Source: a virus
Virus record (IMG/VR): IMGVR_UViG_3300044491_003889
Span: 1 to 38,583 of that record
Direction: 5' to 3' (one strand)
DNA: 38,583 bases
Of the stretch, positions 7,608 through 36,183 are shown piece after piece (position 1 is the first letter of the stretch; the number at the start of each line of letters is the position of its first letter). Position numbers and translations under genes: made by a program. A model generated the notes under the pieces. The model made no database searches and was not told where the DNA came from. It saw nothing but the letters and a program-made list of their open reading frames with translations.

Positions 7608-7615
7608 TATTTATT
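7608..7615 (-). promoter_or_regulatory. Late-promoter-like box AATAAATA
   Basis: The minus strand reads AATAAATA, six bases before the ATG at 7601 and overlapping the stop codon of the 4,291-residue gene. It could start a transcript with almost no leader, or serve only incidentally; the base match to NATAAATA is good. Confidence 0.4.
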
Positions 7616-10600: not shown

Positions 10601-13600
10601 CATCAAACGTGTATGTTTTGGTCGTGCCTGCACCACCGTTCTGAGAATCATAGATTCCTGCCTGCTTCTGGCTGGTGAACAGTGGATAGTAGTATCCGAA
10701 AGATCCTGATGTGGCACCAGATGAGCTTGTGGCCTGTATCTGGAATGGACCTGTTGATCCCGTTGTGCCTCCCAGTATTGTAACTGTTGGAGCCACCTCA
10801 TATCCTGATCCTCCCGCGGTCACCGTGATGGACTGTACATATTTCTTATGATAATCATTCCACATCTGCCATGGATACTGTGTGAGTTTGTCCGTGTCCG
10901 ACATAACGTTCAGTGACCTTATTTTGCCTGTGTCGCTGTCATAGAACGGAGGATTGTCAAAATCTGTGAATATACCGTCCTGTGTGTCAGTGCCTGTGTA
11001 ACCCAATTTGTATTCCCTTATCTTGGTGTGGAAGGGTTTGACCTCATTGATGTAGCTCTCTATCCATGTGTCAGTACCTGTGGTATATGTTTTGCGCTGA
11101 TCCAATGGTCTCACCGAGTTATTGACGTTAATGAAAGAAGTTTTGAACATCCAATCTACGTAGGTCTGTTCTGACAACACCTTCCTTAATCCTGTGAAGA
11201 AAAGAGTATTGTATTCCACCGCGAGGTCATTTATAAACAAATCATCTCGAAGGGCAGTTAGTATTTGCCTTGTCTCTATGCTGGGCTCTTGGTCAAAGAA
11301 GTTCTCATCGAAGTTGTCCTCGCCGGCGAACCCTGTGGCGTCCTGTGAGTAGTCATACAGTTTCGTTGATAGCCTTATGGTTCCATTCTCCGTTCCCACG
11401 TTTTCCCATCCTGTGGACGTCCTCATGAACAGTTTCCATCCGCCTGTGTCCGCGCTAGTTACTTTGACATGTTTTCCTATCTCAAGTTCTAAGGTCTCCA
11501 ACTCATACTGATAGGTCACCTGTTTGTCTATCTTGGTGTTTTCGTCGTGCGTCATGTCACCGTCGACTTTGTACCAGTCCGTGTAACTCCAATACACCGA
11601 GGTGTTGTAGGTCTGTACCTTGGTCCTCGACCACTCTGTGCCGTCCCAGGTATATATCGCCCAGAAGTTGTTGGCCGTCTCGTCTGCCTTGACTAGGTAT
11701 TTGACAGTACCTGATAAGTCGTTGGTGTTAACATAGGTCAATTCTGCGTAGGTATCCACAGTTGCGTCCCACTCGAGACTCTGTGCTGTCGGTTCTGGAT
11801 CTTTCAAGTCTAGATTTGTGAGATTAATCTGGCCCACCAATTGGTTCTTCTTCAGCACTGAGTTGGCGTAGTCGATTATCTCCTTCAGTGCAGAGAATCT
11901 GTCCACGTACCAACTTTGCCTAGGTCTAATGCTGTTGCCATATCTCTCGTTCACAGGCAGTTCTACATCTGGTACTAGATCACCAGCAGAGTTCTTGCCT
12001 ATCAGGGAATCCCACCATCTTGTTTCAATCTGCTGTCCTGGCCTGTACTCCTTGTCACCTTCCCTGGCCAGTTTCCATACGCTGTGTGCGTCTCCTTCGA
12101 ATGTGTTGGTCCTCACGTCAACGTTCAACACGATGTCGTCATTGCTTAAATTAGTGATATTGTTGATAATGAACTTGTTGACGTCTGTTGCTGAATAATA
12201 CTTCACATCAAATCTGCTTGGATCTGTGATGAGATTGGCGACAAAAGAAGTGGAATTTTTCCTATCTACAACGCTGTTGCTTGGAACTGTTATTTTGTTT
12301 TTGACCCAATAGTAATAATAATTCACGAAAGCGTCTAGTCTTGAATTGTATCTCTGTACGACCGAATACTGAGAATCATCACCATACGCGGCCGTGCCAC
12401 TTATTCCCTCACTGGCTCCTTGTGGTGATCCAGATCTACTGTTCCACTGGCTTGGTAATAAAATCGACTCTGTCCATTCATACACATCCATGCTGGATCC
12501 AGGGAAAGTCTTACCCCAATTATTGACCTTGTACTCCTGTGTGTCCTGTTCGTACCATATCCATTTAACTTTAGATAGGTCCCACCATACTTCTCCTAGA
12601 TGTTCTGCTCCCCATGGGGTCTTGGTGTTGGCATTAACCCCCACGTTGTAAGTGGCAGGATCCCATGTGGTCTTGATGTTGATCTCCCTATCAGCCAATC
12701 CTAATATCCTACCCTTGACTGGATCATACAGGTCGTAGTAATCTTTTATCTGTTTGGTTCTCCTGTTGAAATCGAAAACTTGTCCTAATTTGTTGATATC
12801 CAATAAAGGAGTTTCGGTTACTAGGTTCTTCCATGCGTACTCTCCTCGCACAGTGGTGTCATAACAAGTCACGGTGCCATCGTTGGAGATCCTTGTGCTT
12901 CCGTCTAATGAGATGTTACCCTCGTCGTTTGGTGCCCCCACGAACACCGTGTCGTCTATCATGCAAATGCCACGTCCGAAGTCGTCATTTTCTGAGACCA
13001 AGGCGGAATTGAGCCTGTCATCCATCACGAATTTAGTGTTGTACATGGTGGCCGTGTAGGCCGCGCCGGAACCCGTGTTTGGGTCAACGATCGTCGTGTC
13101 CTGTAGGTCAAACGTTGTTTCGCCCAAATCAAACTTTATCTCACGAGCATTGGCAAAATTTTCTGCTCCTATCACCAAACGTGTTCCTGCTTGATTTATG
13201 TCCAACGTGGTACCAAATTTCATGTTGTCTTGAGTATCTGGTGCAGTAATAGTTTGTTGAAGTGTGTATGTGTTCGTTGAGCCGTCGGCATTCCACTTGT
13301 AGTAGTAGATTGCTCCACCGTCGGTTTGGTCTGTGCCATCTACTCCAGGCGCTCCTATGATCAGTGTTGTGCCATCCTTGCTCATTGCTATCGATTCTCC
13401 AAAGGCAGTGTTTATTGAAGATCCATCACTGTTCACTCCTGTTATTGTCTGTGCAAGTGTAAAGGAATTTTGTGTGCTTCCGTCATTGCTCTGAGATGTC
13501 TTGATGAATATTTCGACTTTCCCTGCATTTCCAGGGGCCAATGAACTTACCACCAAGATATCACCATTATCATTTGCGGCTATTCTGTGACCAAACCTTT

Positions 13601-16600
13601 GTCCTGATCCTCCGTCTGGTGCTTCTATCGTGTAGTCCTGGGTCCATGTGTCATATGTTGATCCGTCCAGACCTACTCCCCATGTGTACATGTACACCCT
13701 ACCAGTGTCATTTGCATGTCCTGGTGATGAAACGAAAAGATACTTGTCCGCCGTAGATCTAGATGAAGTTGCTCCTGGTTCTGATATTTTGTGTGCCCAA
13801 CCAAAGTTTGCATTCTCTGTCAGCGTTGATCCATCGGTCGGTGAAGTCAGCGTGTTGAGTACGCCATACTTGAATGTGCTCGGATCCCAAAGATAAATCT
13901 TTATCAGTCCTGAATCTATAAATCTTGTGCTTCCATCTGATCCAATCACGTTGGCATATGGGGCACCGGCGACAACAAAGTTCTCGTCTGTGCTGATAGA
14001 AAGTGATTCACCGAGTCTGCTGGTGTTGTCGTCACCTTCGGTCGTTGTGTTGGTCGATTGTGTAATGAATTGTGTTCCAGCGTCATGGGAACTCCTGAAG
14101 AAGAAGTGTACCTCTCCCTGTCCCTTGCCTGGGGCGGACACAATCAATGTCCTACCGTCATTACGTGCCACAATCCTGTGTCCGAACTCTTGGTCGGCGG
14201 TCAGTGTGTCTGGTGAAAGTATCAGTGTCTGTGTGTATGGATCCTGTTTCTCATAAACACGCCACAGTCCGTTGCTGTCCGCATCTGCAAACACCTTGTC
14301 ACCTTCACGCCCAATGCTATCATCTTTATCAATGTATTGAGAATAACTTAATAGATCGTTTACGTTGTCCATAGACCCCAATCTCACCGAGACGAACTTG
14401 TAGACATTGCCGAAACTGTCCGCGGTTGATCCGTCCTCCAACGTTGGTATGAATCCTAAATTCCCTGAGTAGTCTATGACCACAGTCTTGTGGTCGGGAG
14501 TACTTGAGATCCTGTACACTCCATTTAGAGCGATCTCCTCACTATTGCTGATACCGAAATAGTCTGCCTGTGTCGTCGTTGTGCCTGCTGATAACCCATG
14601 CGATCCAGACAACGTGAGCTCAAGTTGAGTGTCATCGTTTATTACTCTGATTTTCTCTATCTTCACACCAGCGCTGGTTATCCTCAAGACATCCCAGTCA
14701 TTGTTGCTGGTGTTGGCCACCCAGATGAGATCGTTGGTTGTGATAGAATTCATATCTAGATTCAATATGTCGTCCGTGCTGAATGCTGTGTGTTGCACTT
14801 GCTCCAGTTGTGGATATCCTGCAGTCTTGTACACCTGTGTGACATCTCTATCCACTCCCTCTTGGGTATAGTCTAATCTAGAGAAAGTGGAACCAGAGAT
14901 GTAGTCGACTGGTTTCTTGTAGAAATTTGACTTAGGAACGGCAACCGATCTGCTGTATCCTACTGTATCGTTGGAACTGTCAAGCAGTTCGATACTCTGT
15001 GGATTTGCTGTTATCTCATTATCACGCAGAGTAATCTGTATGCTCTCCACACTATCGGTGTTACCAAATCTTCCAGTCCTAATCATCCACTCTGGATACT
15101 GGTTCAGTTGGATGTCCGATCCCTCATATCTGGCTTTTAAAATTTTATCTATAGCATCCTGGGTACCTTTCTGCCTGATGTAACCCTGATAGAACTTGTA
15201 CTGTGACACATCATTGACGAAGAGATTCTCGAGATAGTCTCTACTCTGGTAACCTATCAACCTCTGTGCCAGCTGTTGCTGTGACTCATCGAAGTTATTG
15301 CTTTCTAGATTGTAGAAATCATTGAACTGTGTGATCTTGTAGTCAAAGTTGGGAATCAATTGAGGTGCTGGTTTAGTGTCTTTCAGCGTCCAGTTGCTTT
15401 TGTCGAACTTGTCTACTGAATTGTGATTCGCCTTCGCCACGTAGAACTTTCCTTGGTATTCCACGCTGTCACCAATTCTGTAGTCGGTGTTGGCCGTCCA
15501 ATAAATGATCTGAGCGGCATCGAACACAAAACCTGGAGCATAGTAGTCACCGTTCCAGTCGGCTGTCTTCCAACCCACCAGTTTCAATCTCTGCTGTCTG
15601 AATCCTGTGAATGGTTCATATATGATGTCCGAGAACACTGTTGAGTTGTCGAACAACAGCAGGTGCTCCTTTTGTACTGTGTTTAGTGCAATATTATAAA
15701 GTCCGATGTTGTCTGACTTAACCCCCAGTTCGAAGGTCTTGCCTATACGCTTGGTAGTAATCTCCCTGATGTCGATCTTACGTCCTCCGGCATCCAGTAG
15801 TGAATAATCTCCTGCTAGGTTCCTCAATCTACCCACTATAGAATTATTTGTGTCTAGTTCAAAACCATCCGCGGCCGGTGAAACCGTTATCGCAGATCCC
15901 GGTGTCCACTCCTGCGTGGTCCAGAACAGGAACTCCCTCACGGCGTTGCTCCAGTTCAGTACCTCCTTAAGCTCGTTGGAGAACTTGTTGAACCTGAAGC
16001 CCTGTGACTCCAACCAGTGTCCGTAGCCGAACAGGAAGTCCGCCACGTCCTGTATGGTGTTGAACACATAACCATAAGGTATGGTCTGCGTTTGCTCTTG
16101 ATAATTGGCGTACTGCTTGACCTGTTGTGATCCCTGTACTGAAACCGACGTGCTGGTAGTGGTCTTGATCGGGTAGTTGAAGGTGAAGTAGGGTTTGATC
16201 GTACTGTAGCCTAGAATTTTATAACCGCCCAGTAAAGACGATCCGTCCTGTCCAACATCTGTATTTTTCTCTATCAACACACCTGAGTAATAGAAACTCT
16301 CTACCGGATTTGATGTCCTAAACAATATCTTGTAGTTCTCATCTGGTATGAATTTAGACCCTGATGTTGACCCTGGTGAGACAGAATCGGTCAATACCTT
16401 GATGTTGTCTTTATCAGTGAATCCACCAAGTTTGTAGGCCAATTGTATCGAGAGATTTTTCATCTTGTCGTGGTACAAGGCTTTGGGATCGAGGTTCTTT
16501 GATATCAAGTAGTTCACTATAAACGGTTGATAACCCGCTGTCTGGTATCTGGTAGTGACACCCGTATTGCTGTTGGTCAAGATCTCTAAGTGATACCTAG

Positions 16601-19600
16601 CAGTGGCCAAGGTCTTCCTTATACCTGTCTCCGTGTATATCTGATTGCCTGCCGTGTTGGTGGTCAGCCTAGATGGATCAAACAGATTGCTGAAAAATTT
16701 CGCTGGTTTAGTCAGTGCCAGTGTTTTGATCACCGTAAAAGGATACGAACTGGACCTCCTCCACGCCGTCTCTGCTGGTGCTTGGTCTCCAAATTTCCAT
16801 GAGGACTGCCTGCCTGGAATGTCGAAGTTGTCTACCAGTCCCGTGGCGATTGGGTCAAGTAGATTACCCGAGGCATCAACTGGTAGGTATGATCTTATAT
16901 TGGGTTTTCCATATCTTCCCGGTTCCGTGGCAATCTTGTTCCACAACACGTCATTGCCTGACGTGTATGGCGCTGTTCCATACGTAGCGTCCCAGTCCGT
17001 GGGCTTCTCCGAATGTCCCAACATCTCCCATGGTCTGGTGTGTGGTGCGTCCGTGTCATAGAAGTACTTGTAGATTCCCCTCCAGTATCCTGGTAAAGTC
17101 TGTTTGTTCAACCTATCAGTGGACTTGGCGTAGTTGTAGGTAAATGGTGAACCTTCCGAGAACGTGGTGTTGTTGATGTACTGAACGTTGTTCCTTCCTG
17201 CCCATTTATAGAAGTCAGGACCCATCACATCATTTATCTCCTGTAGTGTGTAATCTGTAGAAGTAAATGCGCTTGGCAACATATCGTGGATGTCCAACAG
17301 TGATGTATCGTGCGCGGTCTTGCAGTTGTTATATACACGCATCTCTAGTTCTAAAATAAGGTCATCACGCTCATCACCATAGGCCTTGATTATAGATCCA
17401 TCGTGCCTCCTAATGACAGCAGTGCTGGTCAGGTATGTGTTGTCTGTGAACGACTCTGGTTTGAATTTTGGATATATTCCCAACTTGGTCGGCGACGGAG
17501 GCATGTAACTGCCCGTGGTGTCTGAGTAATCCTTGATGACGATCTTGTCTCCTTCCAGTAGTGCCTTTGTTATGGTGACACTGTCATCTGTGGTGCTGAA
17601 TGTGTAATCTGTTCCAAGTAATAGTTGTGACCCGTTGAGGTATATGTAAACTGCCCTGTTGCTTGGCGTGGTGATGTTGTGCTGTGAATCCAGGGCGTAT
17701 TCTGTCTGTGAAGCACCCTGTACTGTGTAAGATCTAGTGCTGACATTCTCTCCCCATCCTATCATGTCCTCATAGAAGAATGGGAAGGCACTGTTCTTGC
17801 CTTGGTTTATGGCAGAGACTATCTCGTCCACCCTATCCGCGGCGATGCCTTCGTAGGCGGTGCCCGTGGCATGTGTCAAGAAAGCGTTGTACCACTTCTC
17901 GTATTCCTGGTTCACGTAGTCTACAGCAGACGTTATGTTGGTTTCCTGATCTATCAGTCCAAATACCGCCGGAAGCAACGGTGCCTCGTGCTGGTGTATT
18001 GTTCCCCCTTTGAGCCTTGCGTCTGGTTTGTCTCGTAAATTACTTTTTCCTGGAACAGCGCCAGTCACATCCTGATTCTTGTCAAAAATATCTCTGACGT
18101 GATTAAGTATCTGTCCATATGTGAATGTGCCCAACTGCTGATTGAGACTGTTGGTCGCTAAATTCTCTGGTATCTCATATATTCCCTTGTCAGCGACTTT
18201 GTCAGCGGTGCTATGTGCCGCTATCCTGATCTGATCATTGACTTGCAACTCGCTGTTGAATCGCACGTACTTGTTCGTCGTGCCGTTGATCAACGTGTAG
18301 TCCGTTATTATGGTTTTTCTCGTGCCATTAACAGAAACCGATACCTCAAGATCTGTGAGCGAGGCGGAATTCTTGTAGAAGTCTATTGGGAACAACTGTT
18401 TCTCCGTATCGTCCACGATGAAAGTCCTTATCACACGTTGTCGGCTCTCATTGGTCCTCTTGATCCAAGCACTTCTGGAGTTGTGTGTTCTCCTACCTGT
18501 CGTGTAGTGCAGGTGTCCCTCCGCTAAATTTTTTGTCAGCGTACGGCTACCGTCTTTGTAAGTGAATGTGCCTGAAGTATGGTCTGATTCAAACACTATG
18601 TCTCCCACGTTGTTTATAGTGTTGTACTTGACCTTTATACCCAGCACAGTATCAACCGTGGCCGTCGTTGAGGTTGCGTAAGAGAAAACCTTGGCGCCTG
18701 CGAATGACGAGTTTGGATAAGTTGTAGTATCTGCGAAACTGTTGTGATTGTTGTCCCACATGCCGAACAACGGCTGTTGGTTCACTCCCGTCTTCTGTTG
18801 TGCCGCAGTCCATGACTCTGTCGTACCATTGTAATAGAATGTCTTGCCCTGATTGGTCGTTCCAAACTCTATGAACACGGAATCATTGTCTGTTGGTATA
18901 CTGTCTGATGATTCTGTCAGTGCTATCACTTGTGTGGAATCTCCCGCTGTCACGAAATCCACGTCGTATATCTTGTTCTTTACTATCGGATCAGTATCTG
19001 CGGCGAATATGACTCTCATTCCCTTTGCCAATGAGAGACCATCCACTATGTATCCGGTCTGACCGATCACTTTGCTGAAAGCGTCTGTTGTTACCGTGTC
19101 ATAAAGTGTGACCGATCTTTTGGCCGCTGTGCCGTGATTATAAAGTGCCAGACCCGAATCAAACTCTATGATGGGTCTCTTGGCCCTGTCATCCTCGTTG
19201 AGCACAGGAGTGAAACCACCTATCCTCGCAGTCTCTTCTATCACAGACCTGTGGAACCACCTGTTGTATCTCGACCAGGCGTTTTGGTCCTGTGAGTCCC
19301 TCTTGATGGTTATGTAGTCCTTGGTGTCTGGTGTGTAAAACGCTTTGGCGTATGGTCTTGAATCGTACCCTACCGAATCGTAAAGTATTGTGGTCTCCGT
19401 GGCGTAACTGGCAGGTGTGATTAGATCATCCACGTCGGTAAGGGTTATCGCTTCTCCAACACCTTCAACATAGTATTCCTTGTCCTGATATGCCGTTGGT
19501 ACCAAACTGCTTGTGAATTTTATCTTCATGCCGTTTGACAGATCTAAGGTCCTCAGGCTGTAGTTCTTGACACCTATGATATCGTTCGCTGGATCGATCG

Positions 19601-20486
19601 CCGTGGCGGCCGTTGCATCCTTGATCTGTAGTATGCCGTACATGGCGTCATGGTTGCCACATTGGTAATATAAAGTGTCTGGTGCACCGGAGGTAGGGAC
19701 CGTGAAGGTGACCGTGCCTTTGTCTGCACCGTTGTTTGTGATACCCGTATTGAATATTGTTGAAGTGGAACCATCCACAGAGACCTTGCTCTTGTAGGGT
19801 TCTGTCATTATCCAGAATGGGTGTCCTTGTGCATTGACATCAAACTTATAGGTATTGCCCCTGTACAAAGTTATTATAGGATTCTTTTCGTTCTCTTTGT
19901 GCGGGAACTCCCACCCTGAGTTGTCTGAATATGGTTCAACTTTATATTCTACAACTGCACTTGGTCCTACCGAATCAATCTCTATCGAACCCGGCCCTTC
20001 TGGTATCCAGTAATATTCCCTGTAGTTAATTAACTTGTCATAGTCTATGGCTGGGTTCCAACTGTAAACGGTCTCCTTGTTGAGCCTGTCATGGTTGTTG
20101 ACCTTGCCTCCCAGATACCGGATCTGGTTGATGTAGTCGTCGTATGTTCCTGTGAACTTGACCTGATCCTCTGGATTCACAGAAGTCGTGTCTCTGTCTG
20201 TGTAAGTTACTGCCGGTTCCAACTGGTATGCGAACCTATCCCTGCTGATGGCACCTATGTATCTGTCTGTTATCTGTCTGGTGTAGGCATCCTGTCGACC
20301 AATGTAGCCGTCCAGTCTTTCCAGTGAACCCTTTTGTACCAGTGGATCCAGTGTGCTGGCCAGGAAACGTTGGTTGGTGTCGGTCCTGTAGAATGCTGGT
20401 AGGTGTTGTACCGTTCTACGGTATTCGTTATCGCCTTGCTTGACGACTTCGTTGTTGGTCAGCGCGTTGATTGGATCGTCGGCCAT
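7611..20486 (-). CDS. Giant modular tail/baseplate structural protein (4,291 aa)
   Basis: An uninterrupted reading frame encodes 4,291 residues, about a third of the window. The N-terminus (MADDPINALTNNEVV, then RTVQHLPAFYRTDTNQRFL) resembles the large structural proteins that follow gp6 in marine T4-likes. Visible modules are: a cupredoxin-like domain at about 205-290 with His222, Cys276, His279 and Met282; an FG-GAP-like propeller at about 2095-2520; a paired GSGYEVAPTVTILGG / GIGANYTATPIVVISGG motif near 3200-3320; and tandem GDGST-type beta repeats at about 3520-4255. The tetrapeptide DGST occurs many times throughout. The start overlaps the gp6 stop (TAATG) with AGGAT as ribosome binding site, so it is translationally coupled to gp6. 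By position it should belong to the baseplate periphery or long tail fibres; equivalence to T4 gp7 or gp10 cannot be shown here. Confidence 0.85.
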   Translation of the reverse strand: MADDPINALTNNEVVKQGDNEYRRTVQHLPAFYRTDTNQRFLASTLDPLVQKGSLERLDGYIGRQDAYTRQITDRYIGAISRDRFAYQLEPAVTYTDRDTTSVNPEDQVKFTGTYDDYINQIRYLGGKVNNHDRLNKETVYSWNPAIDYDKLINYREYYWIPEGPGSIEIDSVGPSAVVEYKVEPYSDNSGWEFPHKENEKNPIITLYRGNTYKFDVNAQGHPFWIMTEPYKSKVSVDGSTSTIFNTGITNNGADKGTVTFTVPTSGAPDTLYYQCGNHDAMYGILQIKDATAATAIDPANDIIGVKNYSLRTLDLSNGMKIKFTSSLVPTAYQDKEYYVEGVGEAITLTDVDDLITPASYATETTILYDSVGYDSRPYAKAFYTPDTKDYITIKRDSQDQNAWSRYNRWFHRSVIEETARIGGFTPVLNEDDRAKRPIIEFDSGLALYNHGTAAKRSVTLYDTVTTDAFSKVIGQTGYIVDGLSLAKGMRVIFAADTDPIVKNKIYDVDFVTAGDSTQVIALTESSDSIPTDNDSVFIEFGTTNQGKTFYYNGTTESWTAAQQKTGVNQQPLFGMWDNNHNSFADTTTYPNSSFAGAKVFSYATSTTATVDTVLGIKVKYNTINNVGDIVFESDHTSGTFTYKDGSRTLTKNLAEGHLHYTTGRRTHNSRSAWIKRTNESRQRVIRTFIVDDTEKQLFPIDFYKNSASLTDLEVSVSVNGTRKTIITDYTLINGTTNKYVRFNSELQVNDQIRIAAHSTADKVADKGIYEIPENLATNSLNQQLGTFTYGQILNHVRDIFDKNQDVTGAVPGKSNLRDKPDARLKGGTIHQHEAPLLPAVFGLIDQETNITSAVDYVNQEYEKWYNAFLTHATGTAYEGIAADRVDEIVSAINQGKNSAFPFFYEDMIGWGENVSTRSYTVQGASQTEYALDSQHNITTPSNRAVYIYLNGSQLLLGTDYTFSTTDDSVTITKALLEGDKIVIKDYSDTTGSYMPPSPTKLGIYPKFKPESFTDNTYLTSTAVIRRHDGSIIKAYGDERDDLILELEMRVYNNCKTAHDTSLLDIHDMLPSAFTSTDYTLQEINDVMGPDFYKWAGRNNVQYINNTTFSEGSPFTYNYAKSTDRLNKQTLPGYWRGIYKYFYDTDAPHTRPWEMLGHSEKPTDWDATYGTAPYTSGNDVLWNKIATEPGRYGKPNIRSYLPVDASGNLLDPIATGLVDNFDIPGRQSSWKFGDQAPAETAWRRSSSYPFTVIKTLALTKPAKFFSNLFDPSRLTTNTAGNQIYTETGIRKTLATARYHLEILTNSNTGVTTRYQTAGYQPFIVNYLISKNLDPKALYHDKMKNLSIQLAYKLGGFTDKDNIKVLTDSVSPGSTSGSKFIPDENYKILFRTSNPVESFYYSGVLIEKNTDVGQDGSSLLGGYKILGYSTIKPYFTFNYPIKTTTSTSVSVQGSQQVKQYANYQEQTQTIPYGYVFNTIQDVADFLFGYGHWLESQGFRFNKFSNELKEVLNWSNAVREFLFWTTQEWTPGSAITVSPAADGFELDTNNSIVGRLRNLAGDYSLLDAGGRKIDIREITTKRIGKTFELGVKSDNIGLYNIALNTVQKEHLLLFDNSTVFSDIIYEPFTGFRQQRLKLVGWKTADWNGDYYAPGFVFDAAQIIYWTANTDYRIGDSVEYQGKFYVAKANHNSVDKFDKSNWTLKDTKPAPQLIPNFDYKITQFNDFYNLESNNFDESQQQLAQRLIGYQSRDYLENLFVNDVSQYKFYQGYIRQKGTQDAIDKILKARYEGSDIQLNQYPEWMIRTGRFGNTDSVESIQITLRDNEITANPQSIELLDSSNDTVGYSRSVAVPKSNFYKKPVDYISGSTFSRLDYTQEGVDRDVTQVYKTAGYPQLEQVQHTAFSTDDILNLDMNSITTNDLIWVANTSNNDWDVLRITSAGVKIEKIRVINDDTQLELTLSGSHGLSAGTTTTQADYFGISNSEEIALNGVYRISSTPDHKTVVIDYSGNLGFIPTLEDGSTADSFGNVYKFVSVRLGSMDNVNDLLSYSQYIDKDDSIGREGDKVFADADSNGLWRVYEKQDPYTQTLILSPDTLTADQEFGHRIVARNDGRTLIVSAPGKGQGEVHFFFRSSHDAGTQFITQSTNTTTEGDDNTSRLGESLSISTDENFVVAGAPYANVIGSDGSTRFIDSGLIKIYLWDPSTFKYGVLNTLTSPTDGSTLTENANFGWAHKISEPGATSSRSTADKYLFVSSPGHANDTGRVYMYTWGVGLDGSTYDTWTQDYTIEAPDGGSGQRFGHRIAANDNGDILVVSSLAPGNAGKVEIFIKTSQSNDGSTQNSFTLAQTITGVNSDGSSINTAFGESIAMSKDGTTLIIGAPGVDGTDQTDGGAIYYYKWNADGSTNTYTLQQTITAPDTQDNMKFGTTLDINQAGTRLVIGAENFANAREIKFDLGETTFDLQDTTIVDPNTGSGAAYTATMYNTKFVMDDRLNSALVSENDDFGRGICMIDDTVFVGAPNDEGNISLDGSTRISNDGTVTCYDTTVRGEYAWKNLVTETPLLDINKLGQVFDFNRRTKQIKDYYDLYDPVKGRILGLADREINIKTTWDPATYNVGVNANTKTPWGAEHLGEVWWDLSKVKWIWYEQDTQEYKVNNWGKTFPGSSMDVYEWTESILLPSQWNSRSGSPQGASEGISGTAAYGDDSQYSVVQRYNSRLDAFVNYYYYWVKNKITVPSNSVVDRKNSTSFVANLITDPSRFDVKYYSATDVNKFIINNITNLSNDDIVLNVDVRTNTFEGDAHSVWKLAREGDKEYRPGQQIETRWWDSLIGKNSAGDLVPDVELPVNERYGNSIRPRQSWYVDRFSALKEIIDYANSVLKKNQLVGQINLTNLDLKDPEPTAQSLEWDATVDTYAELTYVNTNDLSGTVKYLVKADETANNFWAIYTWDGTEWSRTKVQTYNTSVYWSYTDWYKVDGDMTHDENTKIDKQVTYQYELETLELEIGKHVKVTSADTGGWKLFMRTSTGWENVGTENGTIRLSTKLYDYSQDATGFAGEDNFDENFFDQEPSIETRQILTALRDDLFINDLAVEYNTLFFTGLRKVLSEQTYVDWMFKTSFINVNNSVRPLDQRKTYTTGTDTWIESYINEVKPFHTKIREYKLGYTGTDTQDGIFTDFDNPPFYDSDTGKIRSLNVMSDTDKLTQYPWQMWNDYHKKYVQSITVTAGGSGYEVAPTVTILGGTTGSTGPFQIQATSSSGATSGSFGYYYPLFTSQKQAGIYDSQNGGAGTTKTYTFDGHSGTFYGPTASTSEAQSTKSGTFKMYVTPTTTAATATATIRDGAVTRITVTGIGANYTATPIVVISGGKKDGSTPADTAMAYANLNNDLVRDINTTIKFDRVSSTSRVVDWAASTSYAYNDLLRHKNQLYKVTNAFTSTTDFDDNIGSVYKVYGDETGLTAADRTKGFYTPGTGMPGNELDQVMLGVDYGGTMVTGLLFNQDQGWDRSGWYDFPWDNYGESTVKTFRGDGSTVSFTFDSAPDSTKVYQVYTTSAGIRTKTADSFRGDGSTTTFTLTSAPADGTLVEFILFNDDGVLTPTDDRTLDSIIKGGLFTSALGYAPSDIVLEGDGFVTPDTSYAPEEVVPGQLFDTLDIKVYTSPESGVPFISEKNYRGDGNTTIFSIGDYPGTLGSVTVAVDGVIKKLTTDYTVDVANKTITFTSAPASLSVISTKVFAISGENYRVLDTFTGDGNTAVYITSTRGEFNLDSTSSDMYITIDGVPTTAYTTTTTANTITITFTSAPAAGEFIQVAGFNKSTTSTRSYASIRNQTITYDGSTNRHTLTYPPGSIGPYSGLTMVEVNGRMLRGPDNTYYLGDGSTYTYGVVSGLGEDSTVDPAKTITTASQVQVFVNGVQKILNTDYTVDIGNQNVEFVAGAVPTSTDVICISTLVDNHYYNEGTDIILIPSAITSPYSLSASDVISVTTFNNALGMKQRREVLEGQPSGEFYLRFKPLNSTYMYVWLNGEQITQGTDFTVTPHFTSDDTKITIVGRTITSADRLDVMYFALDSAVGATGFRIFKDMMNRTFYKRISKNATTVLTLDMTEGTQTITVADGSMLGTPNVASNTPGVIFIDKERIEYFTKSGNTLGQLRRGTLGTGIKEHGSGTEVVDASGTQTIPYADTVYTNTFTGDGSTVVYALSQTPSSASELDIFIGGQRLLLTSEDGSTINYSVDGSTTAVTLSSAPASGTQIKILHKKGQVWYTGADGNPADGKGLQASTTQQARFIAQEPTNAPE
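7720..9930 (-). repeat. Tandem GDGST beta-repeat region of the giant protein
   Basis: At protein residues about 3520-4255, units begin with F/Y-x-GDG-S/N-T (FRGDGSTVSF, FRGDGSTTTF, YRGDGNTTIF, FTGDGNTAVY, YLGDGSTYTY, FTGDGSTVVY). They continue with a VxVxGV strand (DGVIKKL, NGVQKIL), a TDYTVD turn and an ITFTSAP-type strand. The copies are diverged, so this is a protein-level repeat, not a recent DNA duplication. Such units usually form rigid beta-rich fibre shafts. Confidence 0.7.
12927..14204 (-). other. FG-GAP-like beta-propeller domain inside the giant protein
   Basis: Residues about 2095-2520 contain at least six repeats that pair an FG motif with a V/I-x-x-AP or similar strand: FGHRIVARNDG with VSAPGKG, LGESLSIS with VAGAPYA, FGWAHKIS with VSSPGHA, FGHRIAANDNG with VVSSLAP, FGESIAMSKDG with IGAPGVDG, and FGRGICMI with VGAPNDEG. 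This is the pattern of integrin-alpha FG-GAP propeller blades. In phage tails such a domain could bind a surface ligand; that is inference. Confidence 0.65.
19617..19874 (-). other. Cupredoxin-like domain with complete type-1 copper ligand set
   Basis: Residues about 205-290 of the giant protein read as a small beta-sandwich: LYRGNTYKFDV, GHPFWIM, TVTFTVP, LYYQCGNHDAMYG. His222 and Cys276-x2-His279-x2-Met282 match the His / Cys-x2-His-x2-Met ligand pattern of amicyanin/pseudoazurin-type blue copper proteins. Similar HPF...YYQC..H..M domains occur in marine bacterial and phage surface proteins. Copper binding is not demonstrated. Confidence 0.6.
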
Positions 20487-23400
20487 TAGTATCCTGCCCC
20501 ACTACTGCCGGTGCTTGAACCGGAACCTGTTGTAGTAGAGCCTGATACCGCTGATCCTGTGGTGGTGTTGGTAGTGGCAGTTGATGTTGATGTCACAACA
20601 GTGCCTGACGCCACCAATTGGTTGGCTCCCAAAGCACTTATGATTGAAACATCATCAACGGTGGCCCCACTGATGAAAATCTCGTCTGCCGCTGAGTTGA
20701 TCTGGAACAGAGACCCAAAACTCTGTCCTGATTGGTTTGGCACGATCACCGCTGTCAGCAGGTCTGGCGCCAGTTGGTTGTGTATGTAAGCGGCTAGTTC
20801 TGTAAAGTAAAAAGTGTCTCCGAAATCCCAGTTGTCTAGTGCAAAGAATTCGTTTATGGCGGCGATCACCTTGGTCTTAATGACCGCATCTGATACATTG
20901 GTCTTGGTGTTCTTTACAACTTTAAAAGTGGCTTGGAGTTCCTCGTCGGCATTGTTGCCGAACAGTATCTTGTACTTGACAGGATGGTATACGATTTGAT
21001 CAGAAAGCGACTTCAAAGGATTCAAGATCCCTGAATAATTGATACGCAATTGGTCTGATGTCGATGTGGAAGGTTTACTCCCACCTTCCTGTAGCCATAT
21101 CCTGAACAGATTGTCATAGGTTCTCTCCAACAGGTAAACGTCCACTATGTTGGACACGCTAGGATCAATCCTGGTCTCCTGTCCCGCATGGTGTTTGTAT
21201 TGAAAACTGATCGAACCCCTACCCCGTCTGGCCAGATAATCTGTTGTGGTCGATAGTGTGTTGGTGGTCGAACTATATTTCTTAATGACATTCTCGCTGG
21301 CATCAAAGAAGTAGAACAACTGTCCATTGGTGTACGTGGTGGTGTTGAGATTGATGTCTGCCTCGTTCTGCGTCACTATGAAATTGGTCGAAGCGTAAGG
21401 TCTGTACCTCTCTATGTTGTCATATGATAGATACTTCTCGAAGAAAACAAATTTAGTCGATTCTGATAGTGTTGGTTCAACAATTATATCAAATATATCG
21501 GGATTGTCCACTACACCGTCGTCGTCATCGTCATAGAAACCGACCTTGACCTTCCTGTTGTCCTGGAACCCATCCGCCTCCGTGACTGTGTCTACGACCT
21601 GCCAGGTGATGGGATAACCCACACTGTTGCCTGTTGAGACTATGCTGTTGGTCTTCAATATTTTCACTGTGTCTTTAACACTCCTACCTGTCCTGTAATC
21701 ATAGATCCTCTCTGTTCTGTCAAAATGGAACTTGTTCTGTGATTCAGACTCAAATATGTGCTCTAATTTCCTATATTGTACCGTGTATGTGTTGCCATCA
21801 TTAGTGAACTTGAACCACCAACTTGCATCAGCATTGGTGCCGGTAACAGATCCAGTGTTGGTGAGGTTGAACACCGAACTGGTACTTAGATTAGTTGCGG
21901 TTATGACCTTCCAGGTCTCTGTGTCCACATCATACCTGAGTCCAAACTCTTCGTAGGCTTCTATCCTATCTATGAGATCAGATTCTAGGGTTTCCGAGAA
22001 CGATGTGGTGAAGTTAGGTATTATAGCGTTAACCACTGAACCGTGTGGTATGATATCGTTCAGGGTCACTGGTCCAACTCCTGACTCAAGATTGCCTATA
22101 CCATTGTTGGCACCGTCCAGCACTACCGCTCCTATCTTGGCCCAGGCTCTATCCTCGGAGTTGTCTGTTGTTGACGTGACTAATTTCCCGTTGAGGAATC
22201 GCCTGCTGTCTGGCGATGTGAATTTTATCAATGCACCCGGTTTGGCGAACTTCATGTTAGAGGTAGCGAAATCGCCTAGGACCAATGCCCCTCCTGAAGT
22301 AAAGTAACCGGTGTTAGTGTTGGTTGATGTTGTCGTGGAATTCCATGTTGCCGTCAATGTGCTTACATCTTTGGTTCCATACTTGATATAGTAGAACTGT
22401 CTGGCGTACGCTTCTTTCAATTTCGCCTCCACAGACGTATCTATAGTTGATTGTATGTTGCTCCTGTTGTTGAACGTGAATGTGAATTGCTGTACAGATT
22501 CTTCTCTGTACAATATGCCGTCTTCTGCAAACACCGAAACATTGGAGTATGCTCCCGTAGGATCTAAAATTTCTTTTGCCCTTGATATACCAGAAGCGGA
22601 TCTATTCACTGATCTCACTTTCACAATCTCTTGTGACGCTGACAGAGGCACAACCTGGTAGTCCTCCGCAGTTATCATCCTATTCTGTGAGTAGTATACC
22701 TGTGATGCTTTCTCCTTTATGGAATCGTTTGATTCAGTGGCCGCGGCGTTGTACACTCCAGATTTGAGACTCGCTGTCACGGTCAATGTCTGTTGTGCAC
22801 CATTGGCATCAATGTATGGCACAGTAACTTGTATGTTCTGCATGTCTGCGACCTGTATAGCGTACTTGGCATTGTCGCTGGTCCTGTAATACGTTTTGAA
22901 CGATCCCAGTGGTAGGTTTGAGAAGTTACCATCTCCAAACACTAGATCTACAGTATCGTTGTTTTTGGTCACGACATTGTATATGTTTCTTTCATTCCTA
23001 GACAATGAATTGTAAATGGTGTTGTTGCCTGTCAGTGTGGGAACCTTGGTCCATTGTTCAATAATCTGTCCAAACTGATCCAACTTATACAACCAAACAT
23101 CTGTGTCATTGATGTTGCTAACATTTAGACCCTTGACGTAATTGGTTGTCGCACTATCTACAGTAAACTCTTGGTTGTTCATTGTGCCTTGTTTGAAAAG
23201 CAAAAAGAATCCCGTGTTGTTCGAGCTGTCACCTGCACCATCTGATCTGTAGGTGTAGGTCAGCCCCGTGCCCGATACTGGTGATGATTCGTGTATAGAG
23301 TCTGAATCATTGATCGTACAGGGTACTATCTCGAAGGATCTCGATATACCGCCGACCGACTTCTGGAAACTAAAAATAGGAAGATCAAGTTGATTGGAAC

Positions 23401-23968
23401 TAAGGGTGTAGACCTCCGTGCTGATCCCACCTATGGTGTTCGATTCCCTGGGATTGCCAAACAGTTGTCCTGTCTGGTTCGCGGCGTTCAGTATGGTTGT
23501 GAACTGCTCTCTGTAATTCGAGTTTGCCGAATCATTCCAGATTACGGTCTGGTTTGCCAGGTTCGTGCCTGAAGAATCCCTAACGTCTTGTGTGGTTGAT
23601 ATGGAATCTATCTTAAGAAGTCCTGTGGCTGGTTTGTTACGCTTGGCGTTGTAGTTGATCAGCCTCGCCAATCTTAAAACACTGTTCCTCCTCTCGGCGG
23701 TCTCTAGGAAGTTCTCCCTGGCGTTGAGATCCACCCTGAATGATAGGGCCTGTGCTATGTAGGCTATCAGATCTATTAGGGCGACGTACTCTGAACTCTC
23801 AACGAAGTCATTGAAATCGTCTGGATAGTTCTCCCGGAGATAGGCCACCATGGTCCTTCTCAGTGTCTCGAAGTCGTAACTTTTAAAGTCGGCCTGCTGG
23901 AAAGCCTGGTAGATCTTTCTCCAATCTTCCGCTACTAGTAATCTGTTCTGTCTGTCTGTTGTGGCCAT
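20486..23968 (-). CDS. gp6: Baseplate wedge protein gp6
   Basis: This matches marine T4-like gp6, a baseplate wedge component. The N-terminus (MATTDRQNRLLVAEDWRKIY, then YDFETLRRTMVAYLRENYPD and LIDLIAYIAQALSFRVDLNA) is the highly conserved gp6 start with the ARENFLETAERR segment. A baseplate-J-like central region follows (YSQNRMITAEDYQVVPL, then IVKVRSVNRSASG). At 1,160 residues it is much longer than T4 gp6 (660), and it ends in a Ser/Thr/Gly low-complexity tail ending SSGAGY. Its last codons form the ribosome binding site of the giant gene, with which it shares one base (TAATG). A perfect TATAAATA box lies just upstream of its start. gp25, encoded immediately upstream, is a known wedge partner. 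Confidence 0.92.
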   Translation of the reverse strand: MATTDRQNRLLVAEDWRKIYQAFQQADFKSYDFETLRRTMVAYLRENYPDDFNDFVESSEYVALIDLIAYIAQALSFRVDLNARENFLETAERRNSVLRLARLINYNAKRNKPATGLLKIDSISTTQDVRDSSGTNLANQTVIWNDSANSNYREQFTTILNAANQTGQLFGNPRESNTIGGISTEVYTLSSNQLDLPIFSFQKSVGGISRSFEIVPCTINDSDSIHESSPVSGTGLTYTYRSDGAGDSSNNTGFFLLFKQGTMNNQEFTVDSATTNYVKGLNVSNINDTDVWLYKLDQFGQIIEQWTKVPTLTGNNTIYNSLSRNERNIYNVVTKNNDTVDLVFGDGNFSNLPLGSFKTYYRTSDNAKYAIQVADMQNIQVTVPYIDANGAQQTLTVTASLKSGVYNAAATESNDSIKEKASQVYYSQNRMITAEDYQVVPLSASQEIVKVRSVNRSASGISRAKEILDPTGAYSNVSVFAEDGILYREESVQQFTFTFNNRSNIQSTIDTSVEAKLKEAYARQFYYIKYGTKDVSTLTATWNSTTTSTNTNTGYFTSGGALVLGDFATSNMKFAKPGALIKFTSPDSRRFLNGKLVTSTTDNSEDRAWAKIGAVVLDGANNGIGNLESGVGPVTLNDIIPHGSVVNAIIPNFTTSFSETLESDLIDRIEAYEEFGLRYDVDTETWKVITATNLSTSSVFNLTNTGSVTGTNADASWWFKFTNDGNTYTVQYRKLEHIFESESQNKFHFDRTERIYDYRTGRSVKDTVKILKTNSIVSTGNSVGYPITWQVVDTVTEADGFQDNRKVKVGFYDDDDDGVVDNPDIFDIIVEPTLSESTKFVFFEKYLSYDNIERYRPYASTNFIVTQNEADINLNTTTYTNGQLFYFFDASENVIKKYSSTTNTLSTTTDYLARRGRGSISFQYKHHAGQETRIDPSVSNIVDVYLLERTYDNLFRIWLQEGGSKPSTSTSDQLRINYSGILNPLKSLSDQIVYHPVKYKILFGNNADEELQATFKVVKNTKTNVSDAVIKTKVIAAINEFFALDNWDFGDTFYFTELAAYIHNQLAPDLLTAVIVPNQSGQSFGSLFQINSAADEIFISGATVDDVSIISALGANQLVASGTVVTSTSTATTNTTTGSAVSGSTTTGSGSSTGSSGAGY

Positions 23969-24010: not shown

Positions 24011-24421
24011 TTAAGATAGACGCAGAAGTGAGTTCTCGTCAAAATTAAAACGCAGTTTCTCCGTGATGTTGAGCGGCACATATGTTATAGTGGCCTGTAT
24101 GGCTATGCCCTTGTCCGCTTCCGTGACTAGTATCTCCTGTGTGCTGATCCTAGGATCCGCGTTGAGATTGGCCGTCACATCCTCAACTATAGCATCTTTT
24201 AACGCTTCTGTGAATGGTTCAAACAGTGCATCATATATGATAGTCCCAAATTCTGGGTTCTCCACCCTCTCACCCTTGCGAACAGAAAGCCTGTTGATAA
24301 GGTCCTGCTTGGCAACCTCGAAATCATACAGTTTGAAGTTCTGCTTGTCCGCGCGGCTACTGAAGCCCTTGAAGGTCACTGTCTTGTTTGATAGATTGTT
24401 TGATTCGTTGTCGTATGCCAT
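24011..24421 (-). CDS. gp25: Baseplate wedge protein gp25
   Basis: The protein is 136 residues, near the usual size of T4 gp25 (132). It carries the family hallmarks: DFEVAKQDLINRLSVRKGER, then NPEFGTIIYDALFEPFTE, then VTANLNADPRIST. This is the gp25/lysozyme-like wedge fold, present in contractile tails and type VI secretion sheath-baseplate complexes, where it links the baseplate to the sheath and tube. It lies between gp5 and gp6, as expected for a baseplate operon. A GGGAG sequence 12 bases before the ATG may be the ribosome binding site. Confidence 0.93.
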   Translation of the reverse strand: MAYDNESNNLSNKTVTFKGFSSRADKQNFKLYDFEVAKQDLINRLSVRKGERVENPEFGTIIYDALFEPFTEALKDAIVEDVTANLNADPRISTQEILVTEADKGIAIQATITYVPLNITEKLRFNFDENSLLRLS

Positions 24422-24437: not shown

Positions 24438-26660
24438 CTAAAATTTGAAGATTTTCCTGACCGCCCCGCCTATACTGCCTATCTTGTCCTTGAGATTGAT
24501 GCCCACGTTCTGTAAGAAGCTCTGTCCCAACCTCGAGGCGTCCCTGGCATTGAACAGTCCCGCCTTGCTGGCCAGACTCTTGACCTGATTCATGCCCACT
24601 ATCTTGCCTCCCACAACGCTGGAGTAGGTCTGCGTGATGCTGTTGAGATTGGCTATGGTGCTTTCTATGTTGCCCGCTGATAGATTCTTGGTCAGCCCTT
24701 GCACAGAGTTGAGTGCGTTGTTGGCCAGATCTATGTTGCCTGATACTCCTGAAACTGTGTTATTGCCCAGAGTGAAAAGTTGACCGGCCTGATTCACGAA
24801 CACGTTATCCTTGAACAGTTCCGTGCTCTTTCCTGTGAACTTCTCAACAACCTGTGACGATAAAGTGCTCACGAGATCTTTGGTGGGTGTGTTGAAGTCT
24901 ATGCCCTTGATCTTCTCCGATATGCTGTCCTTGATGTCGAATGGTAGATTGACTTTATCTGTGATACCGTAAATTTCATTGTACTTGGTGCCAAACTCGG
25001 TCAGTAGTTGTCTCGCCTTGACTGCTTCCGTGCTTGATCCCATCTTCTGCTTGACGTACTCCAATGCGTCCGCCTGGTACTGTGCGTCACGTATGGCACT
25101 GTTGGTGCTCACCCTATTCTGCATGTTGATGTACTCTGCCGTGCCTGGCGTGCTGGCCAGTCTGTACCACTGCTTCTTGTCGTCCGCATCAATGGGGATG
25201 ATGCCATCGTTGCCAATGACGCTGGCCCTGAACATGGGCTCGTGTGTGACAAACCTGTGCACCGTGGTCTTGGTCTTCCTGGTGAACTGTTCCAGTGGCT
25301 TGATGCCTTTCTGTGTCAGTTCCACATCTCCCTCTTCCCTGGGAGTTATTCCCGCGGCTTCCGTGGTCAGCCACTTTGGACCCCAAGTATTACTTGCACC
25401 CACTGAATTCAAGTGTACTTGTGCTCCTGCCAAGTCTATTCTTCCCCCGGCACCGTGTAATTGCGGACCATCAGTGAAGGATGTTATACCGTCTCTGGCG
25501 TAGTCTCTGATTGAACCTTTTTGTGAACTGTTGAAGATACCTTTTTCTCCCATATTCAATAGTAGGTCGGCAGAATGTATCATTTCCTTGGCCGAACTGA
25601 ATCTCACCTGTCCGTTGGCGTGCATGTTGATGTTGCTGTCTGAGTGCAGGTTGAAGTCTCCCTCTGTCCTCATGTTTATACCGCCTACCCCTGAGTATAG
25701 ATCTATCCTGCCGTTGCTCTGCATCTCTATCCATGCATTTCCTGAACCGTTGGCTATGTACACCACGCCCTCTGTGTCGTGCATCAACAACTGGTGCCCC
25801 GAAGCGGTCCTCAATCTTGTCAGTTGGTTCGTTCCATCAACAGCACCGTCATCCATCACGAACGTGTGTCCTGCCGTCCTGGTGACATAGTCGGTTGCTT
25901 CTGAATCCTTGGTCCCCACTTTCTGTCTTGTCGTGCCGATGTCCTTGCGTCCCGGGGTGCTGATTCCAAACACCTGGCTAGGGGTCTCCCGCCTGGCCGA
26001 GGATGATGTGTTACCCCTCACGTTATCGCTAACCAATCCTTGTTTGAGTAGTATGTCAGCGAACGGATGTATGGGTTTGTTAATACTGTTGTAGTTGGTG
26101 GCAGTCAATCCCGGGTTGGTCCTGTTGACCTCTCCCGCTGGCAACGAAGTCGACCCGTACTGGCTCTTCTTGTCCACGTCGGAACTGTGCTGTCCGGCGG
26201 CGCCGCCACTGCTCTTGTCCCAGGTCTTCTCGCTGGCCGCGATGCCCGGCACCATGTGGTTGGTCATAGGCTCCTGCACACAACCTATCCAGAACGCCTG
26301 GTCCATCTTGCCTTCCGCAAATATCACCAGCACCCTCGTGCCTATGTCGGGTGGAACCGCCCAGAAACCATAACTGTGCTGGCTGTGTTCGTACTTGGTG
26401 GATCCTGGGAGGTTGTACTTCACATCCTTGGCGCCATAGAAAGGTGACAGGTATTCACATGTGATCAGGTTGCCACTGACGGGGTCAGTGGTCTTGCTGA
26501 GTCCGGGTATGTTGACCTGCAGTCGGCCCATCCTCAATGGATCCGTGTTGTTCTTCACAACCCCTATGTATGGTCCGGCGTTCTCACCTGACCAGGCTGT
26601 GTCGTTGCCCGGTGCCTTTGATGTTGATGCGTGTCCTTTTAAATAATCCTTGCCTGCCAT
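24438..26660 (-). CDS. gp5: Baseplate central spike / hub protein gp5 (no lysozyme domain)
   Basis: Residues about 30-130 form the gp5/VgrG-type OB-fold: GPYIGVVKNNTDPLRMGRLQ, then GFWAVPPDIGTRVLVIFAEG, then AFWIGCV. Residues about 255-430 are spike-like beta repeats (RTASGHQLLMHDTEG, IEMQSNGRIDLYSGVGGINM, FNLHSDSNINMHANGQVRFS), as in the beta-helical needle of gp5 and VgrG. Unlike T4 gp5, no T4-type lysozyme insert with its Glu-Asp-Thr active site is visible, which is usual for marine relatives. The rest is helical and of unknown role. The gene overlaps the upstream 707-residue gene by one base (TAATG), with AGGAT at 26668-26672 as ribosome binding site, so the hub and spike are probably made in coupled fashion. 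Confidence 0.88.
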   Translation of the reverse strand: MAGKDYLKGHASTSKAPGNDTAWSGENAGPYIGVVKNNTDPLRMGRLQVNIPGLSKTTDPVSGNLITCEYLSPFYGAKDVKYNLPGSTKYEHSQHSYGFWAVPPDIGTRVLVIFAEGKMDQAFWIGCVQEPMTNHMVPGIAASEKTWDKSSGGAAGQHSSDVDKKSQYGSTSLPAGEVNRTNPGLTATNYNSINKPIHPFADILLKQGLVSDNVRGNTSSSARRETPSQVFGISTPGRKDIGTTRQKVGTKDSEATDYVTRTAGHTFVMDDGAVDGTNQLTRLRTASGHQLLMHDTEGVVYIANGSGNAWIEMQSNGRIDLYSGVGGINMRTEGDFNLHSDSNINMHANGQVRFSSAKEMIHSADLLLNMGEKGIFNSSQKGSIRDYARDGITSFTDGPQLHGAGGRIDLAGAQVHLNSVGASNTWGPKWLTTEAAGITPREEGDVELTQKGIKPLEQFTRKTKTTVHRFVTHEPMFRASVIGNDGIIPIDADDKKQWYRLASTPGTAEYINMQNRVSTNSAIRDAQYQADALEYVKQKMGSSTEAVKARQLLTEFGTKYNEIYGITDKVNLPFDIKDSISEKIKGIDFNTPTKDLVSTLSSQVVEKFTGKSTELFKDNVFVNQAGQLFTLGNNTVSGVSGNIDLANNALNSVQGLTKNLSAGNIESTIANLNSITQTYSSVVGGKIVGMNQVKSLASKAGLFNARDASRLGQSFLQNVGINLKDKIGSIGGAVRKIFKF

Positions 26661-30058: not shown

Positions 30059-31042
30059 ATGAAGAGAGTCAAGTACCTAAACAACCGAGATCTGCTGGCA
30101 CAGATACACGCCAGCAAGAACACCTACTGCTCGTACGTCACGCCGGAGGACGCGAACTACGACATCATTGTGCCCAACCTCAAGAAGATCAACACAAGGA
30201 GCATAGCGGAGGCCAAGAAGGCACGCGCCAAGCGGATGACACAGGAGGCCTGGGAGCAGGCCAAGGAGTCAGGCGAGAAGAAGATCAAACTGGTGGACTA
30301 CACCGTGTCTCCGAGGAAGATAGACAAGACAGATCTAGTATTCCGTGTGATGATGTTTGATCACGTGCCCATGGACGACGAGCGTAAACGCAATCCCAAG
30401 AGCACCGCGGATCATCACTCTAAAGTGAACTTCCCACCATTCCAACACTACAGGATCGACCGGAAGGGCAAACTGAAGTGCGTGGGCAAGAGCCATTGGA
30501 TCGGGGGCATGGACAACGGACACTTTTCAGCGGACCACGGCAAGATGACCAACCAACTGGCCATGATGTACATGAAACTGTGTGAGAGATATGGTACCAG
30601 GGCAAACTGGAGGGGTTACACCTACAACGACGAGATGCAGTCACAGGCATTGATGCAACTATCACAGATAGGACTACAGTTCGATGAATCAAAATCAGAC
30701 AACCCATTCGCGTACTACACCGCGGCCATAACAAACAGTTTCACAAGGATCCTGAACATCGAGAAGAAGAACCAGGCCATCAGGGATGACCTGTTGGAGT
30801 TCAACGGCATGATGCCCAGTTTCACAAGGCAGAACGAGAACGACACCAGCACAGTCAGTTACAAGAAGAAGATGAAGACCGTGCATGGCGACGTGCATGA
30901 GGTCAACAAGACCGGATTGGCCAAGCTCAACAAGGCATTGAAGAAGAAAGGCAAACTGGATTCCGAGGACTTCGAGGAGGTCAAGTTCAAGAACAAGATC
31001 GACATGACCAACCACAAACCCATAGTGAAGAAGAAATGGTAG
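30059..31042 (+). CDS. gp55: Late-transcription sigma factor gp55
   Basis: gp55 directs host RNA polymerase to TATAAATA late promoters. The family core is visible from about residue 165: MTNQLAMMYMKLCERYGTRA, then NWRGYTYNDEMQSQALMQ, then SDNPFAYYTAAITNSFTRIL and NIEKKNQAIRDD. This corresponds to the sigma region-2-like part that contacts the polymerase and reads the -10 element. Synteny with gp47 and gp46 agrees with other T4-likes. At 327 residues it is considerably longer than T4 gp55 (185): it has an added basic N-terminal part (residues 1-160) and a lysine-rich C-terminal extension ending PIVKKKW. The ATG is preceded by a weak AAAGAA. The gene leads a rightward cluster with gp47 only 4 bases downstream. 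Confidence 0.85.
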   Translation: MKRVKYLNNRDLLAQIHASKNTYCSYVTPEDANYDIIVPNLKKINTRSIAEAKKARAKRMTQEAWEQAKESGEKKIKLVDYTVSPRKIDKTDLVFRVMMFDHVPMDDERKRNPKSTADHHSKVNFPPFQHYRIDRKGKLKCVGKSHWIGGMDNGHFSADHGKMTNQLAMMYMKLCERYGTRANWRGYTYNDEMQSQALMQLSQIGLQFDESKSDNPFAYYTAAITNSFTRILNIEKKNQAIRDDLLEFNGMMPSFTRQNENDTSTVSYKKKMKTVHGDVHEVNKTGLAKLNKALKKKGKLDSEDFEEVKFKNKIDMTNHKPIVKKKW

Positions 31043-31046
31043 AAAT

Positions 31047-32069: not shown

Positions 32070-32220
32070 GAGGAAATTGTTAAAGACACTGAAGGGCGAA
32101 TTTGAAGAACCAACGTGGAATAAAAAATCCTTGCTAGAACATCTAGCGAAACCCGTGACCCAAGAGGAATGGTTGAGAGGATACAAAGAATGGAAGAGGA
32201 AACAACTTGCTAACGATTAA
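32053..32220 (+). CDS. Small basic protein bridging gp47 and gp46 (55 aa)
   Basis: An ATG at 32053, inside the end of gp47, opens a 55-codon frame that runs past the gp46 start and ends with TAA at 32218-32220. The product begins MSRISKRKLLKTLKGEFEEP and ends WKRKQLAND. It is strongly basic with several tryptophans (TWNKK, EEWLRGYKEWKRK). It fills the 137-base gap between gp47 and gp46 exactly, overlapping gp47 by 17 and gp46 by 14 bases, as expected of a genuine coupled gene. I do not recognise the family. Confidence 0.6.
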   Translation: MSRISKRKLLKTLKGEFEEPTWNKKSLLEHLAKPVTQEEWLRGYKEWKRKQLAND

Positions 32221-36160: not shown

Positions 36161-36165
36161 CGTGG

Positions 36166-36173
36166 TATTTAAA
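36166..36173 (-). promoter_or_regulatory. Weak late-promoter-like box TTTAAATA
   Basis: The minus strand reads TTTAAATA five bases before the GIY-YIG start. It has the TAAATA core of the late boxes but differs from TATAAATA in the second base; the close spacing to the ATG is the same oddity seen at 7608 and 24428. Confidence 0.25.
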
Positions 36174-36183
36174 GCCAAAAAGA

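Follow-up and report, generated by a model that had tools for sequence, protein, structure and literature searches.

We analysed a linear virus record of 38,583 bases (IMG/VR record IMGVR_UViG_3300044491_003889, used at its full length and called the window below), in which a giant virion protein of 4,291 amino acids (aa) carries a cupredoxin domain near its N-terminus. Four residues of this domain, histidine (H) 222, cysteine (C) 276, H279 and methionine (M) 282, present the ligand set of a type-1 copper site in the order His, Cys, His, Met, and copper binding through them is strongly predicted from sequence and model. We estimate the probability that the domain is a genuine cupredoxin binding copper in the virion at about 0.72. 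An earlier note on this DNA had proposed a complete type-1 copper site formed by these residues. Its residue numbers and the GHPFWI context of H222 were correct, and the ligand set, the fold matches and the register of the profile alignment all agree with a complete site. The interval given there (19617-19874) does correspond to part of the domain, residues 205-290, but falls short of its full extent, ~178-293 (Table 1).

Predicted fold

The AlphaFold2 model of residues 176-300, for which 49 aligned sequences, taken from the window and from related viral contigs, served as input, was confident and all-beta (mean predicted local distance difference test score (pLDDT) 88.8; predicted template modelling score 0.84), in line with the compact beta-rich segment described earlier. 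In the numbering of the model, a strand at 96-100 is followed by C101, H104 and M107 and then by a strand at 108-114; C276 thus stands right after one strand, and H279 and M282 lie in the loop ahead of the last strand. This order of strands and ligands matches the arrangement in type-1 copper proteins. A longer model of residues 1-480 had a mean pLDDT of 54.8, with values mostly above 70 only across residues ~160-350.

Foldseek revealed 122 matches in the PDB at E<=0.001, and 50 of the 50 matches listed were cupredoxins. The PDB matches include AcoP (best E 1.4e-5), rusticyanin, pseudoazurin, CuNIR, laccases and plastocyanin; 2ux6, the best match among the pseudoazurins, is an engineered variant bearing an amicyanin loop. 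As modelled, residues ~178-293 are a complete cupredoxin domain, and the structure prediction suggested in the earlier note has returned a fold consistent with the site. Fold matches were also found in BFVD (E ~1e-8 to 1e-7) to A0A481Z6J5 and A0A481YVH3, small stand-alone 'beta-sandwich' proteins of pithovirus-like and marseillevirus-like giant viruses.

Relation to known cupredoxin families

Known cupredoxins were reached only by profiles and fold comparison, not by single-sequence searches. A phmmer search of the PDB with the single sequence gave no match. With the profile of the phage family (alignment A1), the copper oxidase 6vox was the best PDB match (E 0.005), and azurin and pseudoazurin matched weakly. 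For profile-profile comparison, cupredoxins from bacterial genomes were collected via PF00127 and TIGR02657, and 36 were retained by a regular expression requiring His...Cys...His...Met/Gln. The presence of ligands in these 36 is therefore by construction, whereas the selection did not impose their register with the phage profile. Alignment of the two profiles with hhalign placed all four ligands in register (probability 96.2, E 2.7e-9), and 20 column-shuffled control profiles reached a probability of at most 0.8. The remote-homology comparison thus also spoke for the site.

The window domain was matched neither by TIGR02657 (amicyanin; curated cut-off 110.2 bits) nor by PF00127 (plastocyanin/azurin; curated cut-off 21.2 bits), and each of these models matched one of 14 family members (E 0.013 and E 0.15, respectively). 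PF25489 (At5g54830-like) was the closest Pfam model; it matched 12 of the 14 members and reached the window at E 1.7e-5 and 25.2 bits, a borderline score below the curated cut-off of 27. The missing matches to TIGR02657 and PF00127 and the score under the PF25489 cut-off point to a divergent branch outside the named families, and the domain is, judged by these profiles, a distinct branch of the cupredoxin superfamily. The ligand spacing had been assigned to amicyanin and pseudoazurin alike. C-x2-H-x2-M is the spacing of amicyanin, but pseudoazurin has C-x2-H-x4-M, and only the first half of the assignment holds.

Within the giant protein, CGNHDAM (C276-H279-M282) is the sole C-x(2-4)-H-x(2-4)-M/Q motif. 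Cys is scarce, with 5 in 4,291 residues, and 0.0006 C-x2-H-x2-M motifs are expected from the protein composition. The hidden Markov model (HMM) of the family spans residues 193-295, and an HMM search detected no second cupredoxin copy within the window. A chance resemblance of the motif in a beta-rich protein, to which the failure of any single Pfam or NCBIfam cupredoxin model to detect the window domain could be credited, is hardly conceivable: it is refuted by the motif expectation, the confident model, the fold matches and the profile alignment, since fold and profile comparisons both reach cupredoxins.

Conservation of the ligands

Orthologues were surveyed via the regions flanking the domain. 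Queries and scan patterns excluded the domain itself, so that sequences were not selected for ligands. All 231 open reading frames (ORFs) spanning both flanks contain the domain, a count that includes loci found through the domain itself. Among 103 sequences (102 distinct flank-found sequences and the window), the two His and the Cys are invariant and M282 has a sole exception, a glutamine (Table 1). Glutamine is the axial copper ligand in stellacyanin. Close homologues thus show no frequent loss of any ligand. Within the flank-found set, the codons of the His and Cys ligands vary synonymously.

In a wider set of 78 diverse copies, the four ligands and tyrosine 274 are the five most conserved well-covered columns, with glycine 210 tying with H222. 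Part of this set was fetched by a pattern containing Cys and is biased to that extent; this bias affects neither the flank survey nor the profile search of whole genomes described below.

These data bear on the suggestion that the domain might be a relic. A non-functional remnant of a captured cellular cupredoxin has a conceivable source in the cellular secreted proteins with the same domain (see below), but its ligands would be expected to drift; instead, they are the most conserved positions and their codons change synonymously. With ligand conservation near absolute, we consider a relic very improbable, and it was rejected on the conservation survey.

Occurrence in marine phages and in cells

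In tblastn searches, 315-340 phage records contained the domain. Almost all of them are from phages of marine cyanobacteria, joined by a small number of Pelagibacter, Actinomycetia and uncultured marine phages. A self-composed, consensus-like tblastn query led to the same set of cyanophages as did the real one; it is excluded from the counts on which conclusions are based, and was used to pick some of the distant records (S-H9-1, S-SSM7, S-H9-2 and RB11-B). Profile searches of 13 complete or partial marine records revealed 1-4 domain copies in each. In other marine phages it is mostly gp9 connectors, tail fibres and further virion proteins, among them peptidase-like ones, that carry the domain, which is also found in the podovirus P-GSP1 and in P-SSM2 (P-SSM2_028), whereas Pseudomonas phage Deifobo lacks it. 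Every copy in the marine phage records with covered positions keeps the ligand set, except one of Synechococcus phage RB11-B; in one copy a ligand His is shifted by one alignment column. The domain is a mobile module, shared by tail proteins and further virion proteins of many marine phages. Its location near the N-terminus of a 4,291-residue virion protein had been correctly noted earlier, but it is not the one-off that it then seemed to be.

Compared with five cultured jumbo-phage relatives, whose flanks match and in which the domain is absent at the corresponding place, the cupredoxin domain is inserted near the N-terminus of the giant protein. A search of these five with the A1 profile detected no copy elsewhere; the same search gave matches in 13 other phages as positive control. 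In Atu_ph07 and Phosso (L241 and L432), the first 250 residues of the giant structural protein include, at the cupredoxin position, a different segment that is several tens of residues long. This points to a slot for exchangeable insertions, and the position is a possible insertion hot spot.

The same domain with intact ligands was also observed in a protein with collagen-like repeats (L340:2948-5971) and in one with a signal peptide and repeats (L341:3629-4540). Both appear to be secreted proteins of cellular organisms, namely Bacteroidetes and a betaproteobacterium. Contigs binned into metagenome-assembled genomes (MAGs) of Pelagibacter, Porticoccaceae and Betaproteobacteria (L336, L337, L338 and L339) encode a closely identical domain; wherever open frames were measured, it lay in an ORF for a giant protein. 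These are probably phage contigs inside the MAG bins and may give possible hints at hosts.

The bound metal

The presence of the domain in hundreds of marine phages with an almost always intact site suggests that the virus particles probably carry metal, most likely copper. Several observations weigh against this reading or limit it. The TM-scores of the Foldseek matches to solved cupredoxins are modest, about 0.4-0.57. H222 is followed by a proline, where small blue copper proteins usually have Asn or Ser as second-shell residue after the first His. In an orthologue-like sequence (L292:3001-3354), a Met replaces the first His (KGMPFYIM), with Cys, His and Met kept. One of the two copies in RB11-B (L348; PV261925.1:203655-203915) has F/A/V/M at the ligand positions; it has lost His, Cys and His jointly and kept Met, and remains recognisable, which indicates that the fold does not need metal to persist. 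For the adsorption role discussed below, the argument is location only.

The RB11-B copy can be read in both directions. Joint loss of three ligands is as expected if the ligands act as a unit, and the second copy in this phage has intact ligands; the altered copy would represent a natural copper-less control. It also fits a purely structural copper, which would staple the ligand loop and stabilise a beta-sandwich spacer with no host contact, and the domain is found in many unrelated virion proteins, as generic spacer domains are. Other beta-sandwich spacers, however, need no metal, and near-absolute ligand conservation over very different proteins therefore exceeds the expected need of a stabiliser. 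We regard a purely structural copper as a somewhat doubtful, if sensible, explanation.

Another metal such as zinc, or none at all in the virion with Cys and His kept for loop structure alone, appears unlikely. Assembly takes place in the cytoplasm, where free copper is generally scarce, and the proline in place of the usual second-shell Asn could also be taken in favour of this option. Methionine, however, is a poor zinc ligand and yet is present in every one of the 78 diverse copies, the ligands agree exactly with type-1 copper sites in kind and in order, and three of them were lost jointly in RB11-B.

Possible roles of a copper domain

We propose that one copper ion per domain would be held by H222, C276, H279 and M282, as in established cupredoxin biology. 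Because virions assemble in the reducing cytoplasm, copper would probably be picked up during lysis or in seawater. From its location, the domain may be a metal-dependent part of the adsorption machinery that is exposed at the surface. The metal would lock the ligand loop, which bears the exposed second histidine, a docking face in known cupredoxins; with its loop locked, the domain could either dock to a host-surface partner or stay rigid outside the cell. Capture of metal in the course of adsorption would be a further option. We put forward this adsorption role tentatively. Electron transfer is possible and is the least supported function.

Copper loaded on the particle might also lure the copper-uptake receptors of the host, as a Trojan horse. 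Marine phages carry the domain in their tail or fibre proteins, and an analogous proposal exists for iron at HxH sites in fibres of T4, cyanophages and an Alteromonas phage (PMC11705849). No receptor is known, and the copper of cupredoxins is normally tightly buried and not transferred, and we judge such a lure to be quite improbable. A further-reaching consequence of copper binding may be entertained with some doubt: many marine tailed phages, ranging from jumbo phages to T4-like and T7-like cyanophages, could bear type-1-like copper in stoichiometric amounts on the apparatus used for adsorption, in which case virions would be an unrecognised copper-binding colloid of seawater and copper status would affect adsorption.

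The giant protein and its gene neighbourhood

The 4,291-aa protein matches the virion structural protein family phrog_10938, and its gene is preceded by genes for a gp6-like baseplate wedge subunit and, further upstream, for a gp25-like wedge subunit and a hub and tail lysozyme-like protein (Table 1). The closest cultured relatives of the gp6-like wedge protein are from jumbo phages of Agrobacterium, Sinorhizobium, Salicola, Vibrio and Pseudomonas. The giant protein is a baseplate-associated virion protein of a marine jumbo-phage lineage. It also has CBM_5_12-like (chitin-binding type) and FG-GAP repeat stretches at residues 1663-1693 and 2353-2394.

A late sigma factor and SbcD/SbcC-like nuclease subunits are encoded at 30059-33982 (+), adjoining the tail module. 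The protein encoded at 35729-36388 (-) matches both an 'NAD synthetase' PHROG and several homing endonuclease PHROGs; it is likely a mobile endonuclease, with the 'NAD synthetase' PHROG family mislabelled.

Table 1. Positions of the cupredoxin domain, its predicted copper ligands and the surrounding baseplate genes in the window
Feature	Positions	Strand	Evidence
Cupredoxin domain, ~residues 178-293 of the giant protein	19608..19955	-	AlphaFold2 model, PDB fold matches, profile-profile alignment, HMM span
Codon of ligand His222 (in GHPFWI)	19821..19823	-	kept in 103/103 flank-found orthologues, 76/78 diverse copies
Codon of ligand Cys276	19659..19661	-	kept in 103/103 flank-found orthologues, 77/78 diverse copies
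Codon of ligand His279	19650..19652	-	kept in 103/103 flank-found orthologues, 77/78 diverse copies
Codon of axial ligand Met282	19641..19643	-	kept in 102/103 flank-found orthologues (other: Gln), 78/78 diverse copies
4,291-aa giant virion structural protein, carrier of the cupredoxin domain	7611..20486	-	phrog_10938 match, E reported as 0
gp6-like baseplate wedge subunit, gene directly upstream of the giant protein	20486..23968	-	phrog_10646, E 2.4e-296
gp25-like baseplate wedge subunit	24011..24421	-	phrog_261 and phrog_43 (baseplate wedge subunit)
Baseplate hub subunit and tail lysozyme-like protein	24438..26660	-	phrog_13211

Comparison with known systems

We found no report in the open-licence literature that links a cupredoxin or blue copper protein to phage tails or cyanophage virions. 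The fold is a known one, in a setting and a family that appear to be new. Within phages, a close counterpart is the C-terminal domain of phrog_677 (cyanophage gp9, baseplate wedge tail fibre connector), which belongs to the same domain family (E 8e-19 across the C-terminal part) and has intact ligands in the S-ShM2 gp9 copy. There the domain is C-terminal in a gp9-type connector, whereas in the window it is located near the N-terminus of the giant protein.

Amicyanin shares the cupredoxin fold and the His plus C-x2-H-x2-M ligand loop, and the phage ligands are in register with those of amicyanin-like proteins. In contrast to amicyanin, the phage domain has an extra loop between the first His and the Cys and a His-Pro instead of His-Asn/Ser; amicyanin is a free periplasmic electron carrier, whereas the phage domain is inserted in a giant virion protein. 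Plastocyanin, azurin and pseudoazurin (PF00127) have the same four ligand types and give fold matches, but the Cys-to-Met loop of the phage domain is shorter. The first His of the type-1 domain in multicopper oxidases is likewise followed by Pro and a hydrophobic residue (GHPFWI in the phage, HPxHLHG in the oxidases), whereas the phage ligand loop is short. The HxH and HCH ligands of type-2/3 trinuclear copper centres are absent from GHPFWIMTEP and YYQCGNHDAM of the phage domain, and oxidase chemistry is therefore not expected of it.

Iron sites have so far been the focus of proposals for metals in phage tails, and a nearly invariant, redox-capable copper site would add a second metal. In tails of marine phages it would add a possible adsorption trigger or a stabiliser and a link between viruses and the copper chemistry of the ocean. 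Iron-binding HxH sites are described for the tail fibres of T4 (gp37) and Alteromonas phage R22Y and have also been reported for cyanophages (PMC11705849). Like the proposed copper site, these are metal sites in phage adsorption proteins, but they differ from it in metal, ligand chemistry and fold.

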